Shown: positions 3,542 to 46,909 of the stretch, one piece after another
Position numbering within the stretch: position 1 is the first letter of the stretch
Layout of the letters: the number at the start of each line of letters is the position of its first letter
Assembly: GCF_000025285.1 (NCBI RefSeq)
Contig: NC_013741.1
Location: 1,116,001-1,180,000 of the forward strand
DNA from: Archaeoglobus profundus DSM 5631
GTDB taxonomy: Archaea; Halobacteriota; Archaeoglobi; Archaeoglobales; Archaeoglobaceae
Direction of reading: 5' to 3'
DNA: 64,000 nt
Notes under the pieces: model-generated
Seen by the model: only the letters and a program-made list of their open reading frames with translations
Database searches by the model: none
Told to the model about the DNA's origin: nothing
Program-made: the position numbers and the translations under genes

Positions 3542-3544
3542 CGT

Positions 3545-4178
3545 ATGAGTAAGAGACTGTTACGCCTAGGGAAGCTTGTAGGAGACTTGGGATTTACTTT
3601 GTTACTTTGAAGCGGTGGATTTATACCGGTAAGATTAGAGCGGTTAAAACTCCTACTGGTAGGTGGATGATTCCAGAGAGCGAAGTAGAGAGAATAATTA
3701 GCGGAAAAGAAGAAGTCAAAGAGGTGAGAGAGATAATTTATGCTCGTGTAAGTTCCTTGGACCAGAAATCGGACTTGGAAAGGCAGATATAGTACCTTAC
3801 TGAGTATTATATGGGAGAAAGAATATAGGGTCGTAGTCTAAGAGATATAGCCAGTGGTTTGAAAACTAATCGTAAAGGTTTATTGAACCTCTTTAACTAC
3901 GTGGTGAACAGGGAGGTAGACGTAATTGTCGTTACCTATATGGATAGTTACTAGATTCGGTTTCGAGTATCTCGAATATTTCTTCAAACAATTTGGTGTA
4001 AAGATAGAGGTTGCCCTATGGCGAAGAGCCTAAAGATGCTTATCAAGAATTAGTTGAAGACTTGATAGCCATAGTTACTAGTTTCGCTGGCAAGCTATAC
4101 GGTATGAGAAGTCACAAGAAAAAGAAGTTCGTTCAAGACTTTGAGAAGCTTTTAAAGGAGGTTGAAGAGAGTGGTTAA
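3545..4178 (+). pseudogene. tnpA: IS607 TnpA serine recombinase, broken
   Basis: The remnants are in family order. An N-terminal start MSKRLLRLGK lies in one frame. After a frameshift near 3590 comes the MerR-like helix-turn-helix (LKRWIYTGKIRAV) and the catalytic region IIYARVSSLDQ with the nucleophilic serine. Stops then occur from 3790 onward, with recognisable pieces such as DIASGLKTNRKGLL, DVIVVTYMD and FGFEYLEYFFKQFGVK, ending in LLKEVEES before a TAA at 4176-4178. At least one frameshift and several stops make it non-functional. An intact copy would be about 200 residues and would mediate transposition through a serine-recombinase dimer. Confidence 0.85.
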
Positions 4179-5603
4179 ACTTACGAGGACAGTAGTCGTT
4201 CCGAGTATCGTACTAACAAAGAGAAAGTGGGAAATTCTTAAAGAGTTGGAGAGCGTTTACGGAGAGTTAGTTAAAGAGTTAGTCACCTACGGTTTCGAGA
4301 ACGACGTGAAGTCGTTTACTGGATTGAAAAAGTGCAAGTATCACGAGTTGAGGAGGAAACATCCGCAATTGCCCAGTCATTACGTACACGTTGCCTGTCA
4401 AGACGCTTCGACGAGGATAAGGAGTTTCCTAAAACTTAAGAAGAAAAAGCTGGCGAAATCGGACAAGCCGTTGGTTAGTAAGACCTCTATTTGGTTGGAC
4501 GACCACTTGTGGAAACCGTTAGGTTACACGACGATTAAAGTAGCTACGCATAAGGGATGGATTACTATCGAACTCCAGCCACACAAACTGTATTGGAAGT
4601 ACGTAAATGGTGGATGGAAGCTGAGAACACAGCCCAAGTTAAAGTTAGATCGTAAGCAGAGGAGGATATACGTGTATTTCACTTTTGAGAAAGAGATTGA
4701 GGCTAACGGGGGTAACCTGACCTCCTCTTCCCGCTAAAGCGGGAAGGTTCCCCATAGGGGAACCGGCTCTTGCCCCGTCTCACGACGGAGTCATAGCCTT
4801 CGGTTTGTGTCATTGGGCCGGGTCAGAGCGACCCTCTGGGGGAGAAATAAGAGAGGAGGGAATAAAAATGTTTCGGGAGAAGGCGGGCTTTCCTCTTCGC
4901 TTTGAAAAAGCGAAGCTTCCAGCCCGCAAGGAGTGTGATTTCGGTTGACGTTAACGAGGGCAACGTTACGGTTAAGGTACTGAATATGGTTTATCTTCTT
5001 CAAACAGATATTAAGAGGTTAACTCTTGGATACTCTGGCTATCGAGAGGTAATGCAAAGTATTAAGGGTAATAGGCATGTCAAGAGGGTTATTCACAGTA
5101 GAGAGCGCAATAGGAAGAGGGATAGAAGATACAAAATTGCTAACGTTATCGCAAACACGGCTAAACAGTTAAATGCGGTTGTTGTCCTTGAAAACTTACC
5201 TAAACGATGCCCTAAGAACATGATAAGTAACGTAAACGACAAAAAATTGAGGCATAGGATTTATCAAGCTGGTTTTAGAAGTTTGATTAAGGTTATCGAG
5301 GAGAAATGTTTAGAGAGGGGTGTGAGCGTAGTTAAGGTTGATCCGAGAGGGACGTCATCTACGTGTCCGTTTTGTAATTCTAAGCTGATGAGGGGCGATG
5401 CCCCGAGGCAGTTAAAGTGTCCCAAATGCAACGTTGAGATGGGTAGAGATGTGGTAGCGGTTTTCAACTTGGAAAAGAGGGGTTTAACTTTGAAGGGGCA
5501 CGTGCCGTTTGTCCCGATGCCCGATGAATCCACTCCAGAGGTAGCCGTGCTACCGATGAAGGTGTGGATGAGGAGAAAGTTCCTACCGTCTCATTTTATT
5601 TAA
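4171..5603 (+). pseudogene. tnpB: TnpB (OrfB) RNA-guided nuclease, split by an insert
   Basis: The N-terminal half runs in frame to EKEIEA near 4707. The C-terminal half resumes at about 4920 in a different frame with SVISVDVNEGNV. Together they make a nearly complete TnpB: RuvC-I Asp (VDVNE), RuvC-II Glu (VVLENLP), a zinc ribbon with CPFC and CPKC, and RuvC-III Asp (GRDVVAVFNL). The frame change equals an insert of 3n+2 nt, which fits the roughly 213-nt foreign segment. Removing it would restore one frame. The start is the GTG at 4171 (TTG at 4162 is possible) behind an AAAGGAGG ribosome-binding site. Living TnpB proteins cleave DNA at sites specified by an omega RNA from the element's right end. 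Confidence 0.85.
4708..4920 (+). other. Hairpin-rich insert inside tnpB (possible MITE/PATE)
   Basis: About 213 nt with no coding capacity separate the two tnpB halves. It holds a dense series of inverted repeats: an 8-bp stem with a TAAA loop (4728-4747), an 8-bp stem with an ATA loop (4747/4748-4765), a GGCT/AGCC-bounded double stem with CCGTC/GACGG inside (4766-4798), a GGGTC/GACCC stem (about 4821-4835), and a long right-hand hairpin whose outer arms are GCGGGCT/AGCCCGC (4883-4927). Hairpins near both ends resemble non-autonomous IS200/IS605-type elements. Its exact borders are uncertain by several nt, and an RNA function is not excluded. Confidence 0.5.
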
Positions 5604-46148: not shown

Positions 46149-46909
46149 TCAACCCACCTCACGTAATTAACTATTGCTAGAGTAGCGTAGATAGCCTCCT
46201 CTAACCTTACAGTCTCAACACCCTGCATGGGTATCGTGTTCCAACATCTCGCATCCGTATCGATTCCCAACCTCCTCATTATCTCGAACACCCCTTCTTC
46301 AGGACTTCCAAACACGAGTGTTACATCCTTTAGGGACTTTATCTCCTCTATTTTTGGCACCTTACATTTCCTCGAAGTTAGTACCACATTTTCCTTGCTG
46401 AGCACGTCCTTTAGCTCAGCTATCCTTACCTTGTATCCCCAATATTCCTCAGGCTTAGCCTCTTCAACTACCAACGGATTCGTCGAACAGACCCTGACGG
46501 TGACACGGGCACCCCTCTTGGCCTTGCTCTTAAGGGGTGCCAGGGCCTTTACACCTATATCGACCCACCGTGTCCCGTCAGGACCAACCCTTACTACGAC
46601 CCCTTCCCTCACCTCACCGACTTTTAAGCGTTTCGGCTTATGAGAGGGAATTTTAAGGGGTGGCAAAACTCCAGCGTATTTCAGCGTTTCCTTTATAGGA
46701 ATGTACTTTCGAAGGTATTGCGGAGTTTCTGCATACTCCAAAACATCCTTTATGAACTGGGACTCGTTGAGCTTAGGATCTCGGTAAATTATTATTTCCC
46801 CGACTCTAAAAATTGCACAGGCTCTCGCAATTAACCCTACTTTAAAAGTCTTTATCTTCGGGTCGTTCTCGTTTATTAAAGCTGATGATGGGATTGCCAC
46901 AGAGATCAT
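46145..46909 (-). CDS. SPOUT-class RNA methyltransferase (COG2106, upstream of uL3)
   Basis: A 254-residue protein with the start MISVAIPSSALINENDPKIKTFKVGLIARACAIFRVGEIIIYRD and the C-terminal knot region LTLVFGSPEEGVFEIM and IPMQGVETVRLEEAIYATLAIVNYV, the pattern of the SPOUT family encoded next to uL3 in many archaea. An internal OB-like domain (RLKVGEVREGVVVRVG, about residue 95) is present. Eukaryal relatives methylate 28S rRNA at N3 of uridine; the archaeal substrate is likely 23S rRNA. Start at 46909 fits a TATA-like TTTTAACA box about 25 nt upstream (near 46934). Confidence 0.85.
   Translation of the reverse strand: MISVAIPSSALINENDPKIKTFKVGLIARACAIFRVGEIIIYRDPKLNESQFIKDVLEYAETPQYLRKYIPIKETLKYAGVLPPLKIPSHKPKRLKVGEVREGVVVRVGPDGTRWVDIGVKALAPLKSKAKRGARVTVRVCSTNPLVVEEAKPEEYWGYKVRIAELKDVLSKENVVLTSRKCKVPKIEEIKSLKDVTLVFGSPEEGVFEIMRRLGIDTDARCWNTIPMQGVETVRLEEAIYATLAIVNYVRWVE

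Follow-up and report, generated by a model that had tools for sequence, protein, structure and literature searches.

The window, a 64,000-nt stretch of the Archaeoglobus profundus genome, contains a tnpB gene whose two halves lie in different frames on either side of a structured segment, which raises the question of what this segment is and whether the split gene can still be expressed. The first-pass annotation regarded it as a single insertion into an otherwise intact gene. Both halves are indeed open, and a related tnpB of the same genome (L166; 56% identity over the N-terminal half and 38% over the C-terminal half) reads straight through the position. The insert itself was confirmed as structured, non-coding and frame-changing; on either strand it folds better than all 200 dinucleotide-shuffled sequences (z of -3.3 for the plus and -4.3 for the minus strand). 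The host consists of three parts:

3544..4180, plus: decayed serine-recombinase gene tnpA of the host IS607-type element, interrupted by stop codons and frame changes in each of the three frames
4162..4716, plus: N-terminal half of the host tnpB, IS607-type element, by comparison with the relative
4935..5603, plus: C-terminal half of the host tnpB with the TNB/zinc-ribbon domain (Pfam PF07282, 63 bits)

The C-terminal half carries a Cas12f1-like TNB domain, and a weak HTH_17 match just below the cut-off was found for tnpA. Since tnpA had already decayed, the host element was not necessarily healthy when it was interrupted.

Limits and composition of the inserted element

The frame change had been attributed to an insert length of 3n+2, and this explanation holds, but for other limits than those first proposed. 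A segment from 4708 to 4920 comprises 213 nt, a multiple of three, and would leave the frame unchanged; its limits do not coincide with conserved ends either and were dropped. The limits 4717 to 4934 were set by the family boundaries, derived from 25 nonredundant elements and from 20 empty-site alignments representing 11 other insertions. The resulting element of 218 nt (3x72+2) restores the frame EANGGN|VISVDVN upon excision, with a linker of six residues at the junction compared to seven in L166. No empty site was found for the window insertion itself, for which L166 is the nearest sequence and too distant to fix the boundary to the base, and the ends were therefore taken from the family rule and the reading frame. 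As a short transposon that lacks protein genes, the insert consists of a left-end hairpin, a promoter-like box, an HgcC scaffold and the right end GGTCAG:

4717..4934, minus: entire insert of 218 nt, running from the left end at 4934 to the right end (..GGTCAG) at 4717
4935..4938, minus: TCAC tetranucleotide in the left flank, part of the target; predicted TAM and left cleavage site
4883..4927, minus: left-end hairpin GCGGGC...GCCCGC, shared with full-length and solo elements
4861..4876, minus: archaeal promoter-like box (BRE CCGAAA and TATA-like TTTTTATT), with its centre about 29 nt ahead of the RNA
4717..4836, minus: HgcC / omegaRNA (reRNA) scaffold, 120 nt, by cmscan with RF00062
4815..4834, minus: stem 1 with the apical loop CUCUGACC; pseudoknot partner UGACC at 4825-4821
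4728..4745, minus: 3' terminal hairpin UUCCCGC-UUUA-GCGGGAA, with compensatory differences to the autonomous element L033
4717..4722, minus: right end GGTCAG, of which GGUCA pairs with the stem-1 loop and TCAG forms the predicted right cleavage site
4701..4716, minus: predicted 16-nt guide GTTACCCCCGTTAGCC, derived from the host tnpB

HgcC was the sole RNA found by cmscan at the insert (RF00062, minus strand, 4836-4704, E 1e-20), and with 88 bits against a gathering cut-off of 50 bits and a match over the full length of the model (positions 1-130), the window copy is a full-length member of this family. The guide-like RNA that the first-pass annotation had considered thereby received an identity. 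Self-splicing, its other suggestion, was rejected: a self-splicing intron, or another cis element that allows the host TnpB to be made, would fit an insert that changes the frame of an otherwise open gene, but group I and group II covariance models gave no match at E<=1 within 4500-5100, the RNA lies on the strand opposite to tnpB, related elements are inserted after TCAC at intergenic and other unrelated sites, and the host tnpA is decayed, all of which makes this reading extremely improbable.

HgcC RNAs have been reported near transposase genes in Thermococcus and Pyrococcus, with T. kodakarensis copies lying inside transposase genes (PMC4247193), and high HgcC expression has been reported for at least one archaeon (PMC5496347); the function of HgcC was called unresolved (PMC5732400). 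Non-coding RNAs within tnpB elements are known, and a study on TnpB (PMC8612924) refers to the T. kodakarensis transcriptome with regard to RNAs associated with tnpB. In the literature searched, whose coverage was partial and does not permit a claim of priority, HgcC and TnpB were not found together in one paper.

Fold of the RNA and comparison with omegaRNAs

The known omegaRNAs or reRNAs of TnpB (ISDra2; the haloarchaeal sotRNAs RF02656 and RF02657; IS605-orfB-I in Rfam) have a scaffold of about 120 nt, which extends to the right end and contains a 3' hairpin, a pseudoknot between the bases that precede the guide and the loop of stem 1, a guide located in the flank, and a TAM at the other end of the element (PMC10097598, PMC10711439). 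The same arrangement is seen here. In the group, the 3' end of the scaffold is the right end of the element (4717 in the window) and is followed by variable flanks, relatives are linked to tnpB, and the TAM is present in their empty alleles. The five-base stretch GGUCA ahead of the guide is complementary to UGACC in the stem-1 apical loop, the position at which the pseudoknot of the ISDra2 omegaRNA is found (PMC10097598); the pseudoknot is required for the activity of one IS607 TnpB (PMC10711439). Among 52 distinct scaffolds, whose stems were chosen blind to this pairing and compared with shuffled loops, all five bases pair in 19 (1.9% in shuffles) and at least four in 37 (21% in shuffles). 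A clade with the tail UGUCA has the loop UGGCA or UGACA, which is a compensatory change, and stem 1 and the 3' hairpin show two-sided changes. The related sequences are not independent, so these pseudoknot and covariation values are counts rather than probabilities; pairs were counted on separately found hairpins because a MAFFT alignment of all scaffolds had placed stem 1 of the group with TTAC/TCAA ends wrongly.

Judged by this anatomy, HgcC is a guide RNA of TnpB, a DNA-cutting enzyme related to the CRISPR nucleases, and the insert is very probably a non-autonomous element of the TnpB world (IS200/605-like, tnpB-only) with an HgcC-family guide RNA as its only cargo. Unlike the omegaRNAs, HgcC is a separate Rfam family, the window copy overlaps no tnpB of its own and has its own promoter-like box, and the tnpB of its full-length relatives is divergent from HgcC and does not lie upstream on the same strand. 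The canonical overlap with the 3' end of a same-strand tnpB was found at 30 loci of the wider group and is absent from the divergent clade and the window copy, and for this reason the claim is limited to a variant that works like an omegaRNA.

Relatives, target sites and linkage to tnpB

Eight HgcC-like matches are present in the genome of the window. Two of them, L033 and L034, belong to complete elements with HgcC at one end, a 379-codon tnpB in head-to-head orientation and, as in the window, a GCGGGC hairpin beyond the 3' end of tnpB; both ends are common with the window copy, and the window scaffold is 91.7% identical to that of L033, with differences mainly in the 3' hairpin. L035 has HgcC and tnpB in the same orientation, with HgcC at the tnpB 3' end, and adjoins the only Y1 tnpA of the genome. 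L036, L037 and L038 are near-identical short HgcC-like elements of about 300 nt with the left flank TTAC and the right end TCAA, ends which we take to resemble the IS608 rule, and they likely depend on the TTAC/TCAA-type tnpA+tnpB element at L035. The eighth match (1540718-1540819, 24.8 bits), which falls on the left-end hairpin of L034, was left out of the RNA count. The sister genome G016 contains more short elements of the window type (L042-L046); the left-end hairpin recurs in the solo elements L042, L043, L045 and L046, and the promoter-like box CCGAAA(C/T)(A/G)TTTTTATT is conserved in six sister copies of G016.

The copies sit at unrelated sites including intergenic DNA, and L166 lacks the insert; conservation of the stretch inside most intact tnpB genes of the family was thus not seen. 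The left flank is TCAC in 21 of the 25 nonredundant elements, two more have it with a shift of 1 nt, and nothing is conserved further out; at the other end, conservation stops after GGTCAG and the flanks vary between elements. Searches of related genomes with the joined flanks of the elements yielded the 20 empty-site alignments, in which the relatives are continuous and no target duplication is seen. In 14 of them TCAC lies exactly at the junction and there is no other change, and the rest show small indels (L134, L045) or TTAC (L139). In these empty alleles, TCAC is directly followed by the sequence that the RNA would carry as its guide. Another type of element (L051) has the left flank TCAC, the right end GGTCAA and a different scaffold. 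At L054, L102, L105, L112, L113 and L118, elements often inserted at a GTGA that belongs to a ribosome-binding site directly ahead of a start codon; the left end of the element (AAAGGAG on that strand) rebuilds GGAGGTGA at such sites, so that the gene behind it could be spared.

Subterminal hairpins, insertion 3' of a fixed tetranucleotide and the lack of a target duplication are traits shared with the MITEs of IS200/605 and with tnpB-only (IS1341-type) elements, and the family ends, the HgcC match and the empty sites of relatives bear out the earlier suggestion of a non-autonomous element, one with IS200/605-type ends. The window element differs from these in that it keeps a complete guide-RNA gene with a promoter-like box. 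The insert could also be a plain MITE, in which the ends of a tnpB element were joined by an internal deletion and HgcC was kept only as the overlap with the right end, with no functional guide. The 3' hairpin and the right end do double as a transposon end, and neither G016 nor nine of ten further host genomes, mostly Thermococcus, contain a Y1 TnpA. A plain MITE is nevertheless unlikely: the scaffold is kept and covaries throughout, even in stem 1, which lies far from the end; the promoter-like box upstream of the RNA is retained by solo copies of two archaeal lineages; and HgcC transcripts have been reported from T. kodakarensis copies without associated transposase genes (PMC4247193).

The linkage to tnpB was surveyed for 78 HgcC matches with flanks from Archaeoglobi and Thermococcaceae, a sample that favoured high scores. 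tnpB is touched by 39 of them in two layouts. At 30 loci, HgcC occupies the known place of omega/reRNAs, at the tnpB 3' end and in the same orientation, and in most cases the two overlap by 20-85 nt; nine loci are head-to-head, a raw count of ten including the window copy inside the host tnpB. A further 37 matches had no tnpB in reach, some of them on short contigs, and one was classified as other. The canonical Thermococcus RNAs fit the HgcC model mainly in its 3' part. G045 and G046, which belong to the same family, have 13 and 28 HgcC-like matches and many tnpB fragments, corresponding to a burst of such elements in one genus.

The divergent TnpBs form one clade (support 100/99), which spans Archaeoglobus and Thermococcus; the RuvC D/E/D and zinc-ribbon residues are preserved, and the proteins match TnpB/Cas12f chains of known structure in the PDB. 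A contig search with these proteins returned only six relatives, one of which is a Thermococcus element of the same layout, and one distant relative was found on the viral contigs searched. On a more tentative reading, tnpB and the guide RNA of the full-length clade would form a stable divergent pair, and the guide RNA would then be an independent transcript and not a product of the tnpB mRNA. In the intergenic regions of L033, L034 and L044, tnpB and HgcC appear to share an AT-rich promoter region with a single TATA-like box, which is possibly bidirectional. The layouts also bear on the idea that HgcC is an antisense regulator of tnpB and not its guide RNA. One P. furiosus HgcC was reported to be antisense to a transposase gene (PMC4247193), and the window HgcC is antisense to the host tnpB; this overlap, however, was caused by the insertion, HgcC of the divergent elements lies upstream, head-to-head and outside the tnpB coding region, and it is in sense orientation at the 30 same-strand loci. 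A regulator of this kind is therefore highly improbable. In the literature searched in part, neither the divergent layout and solo TCAC guide-RNA elements nor a precedent for a TnpB that loads an HgcC encoded on the opposite strand was found.

Proposed function of the element

Read as a guide RNA, HgcC suggests the following course of events. The element would have entered 3' of TCAC on the strand opposite to the decaying IS607-type tnpB, splitting the gene without target duplication. The HgcC RNA would be transcribed from its own promoter, fold as a TnpB omegaRNA scaffold closed by the pseudoknot and continue beyond the right end into host sequence, and approximately the first 16 flanking bases would thereby become the guide. 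This RNA could be loaded in trans into TnpB from the full-length relatives L033 and L034, which is plausible for the L033 protein because of the 91.7% identity of the two scaffolds, and the loaded TnpB would cut the uninterrupted site (TCAC followed by the guide), whereby the element would be kept or restored. For the window copy, we infer transcription, trans loading, cleavage and the mobilising transposase from these comparisons. No intact target of TCAC and GTTACCCCCGTTAGCC was found elsewhere in the genome within three mismatches; self-cutting would thus be avoided, yet this is also expected by chance.

By anatomy, the window copy is a guide-RNA-only element which knocked out a decaying IS607-type tnpB. 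More tentatively, and with somewhat less than even confidence, elements that carry only HgcC might be regarded as RNA-only selfish elements, which consist of ends, a promoter and a guide RNA, borrow TnpB from full-length relatives and program it to cut element-free alleles. If this is true, the RNA of the window copy would guide the destruction of the nuclease gene of a rival transposon wherever this gene is intact. The guide-RNA reading gives HgcC, to which no role has been assigned, a testable function, the divergent clade of guide RNA and tnpB in Archaeoglobus and Thermococcus departs from the stated rule that an omegaRNA overlaps the 3' end of tnpB, and compact mobile elements with only a guide RNA and the TAM TCAC could be tested in Thermococcus.

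Elsewhere in the window, an L4-Archaeoglobi ribosomal protein leader (RF03135) was detected above the gathering score at 46494-46581 on the minus strand.
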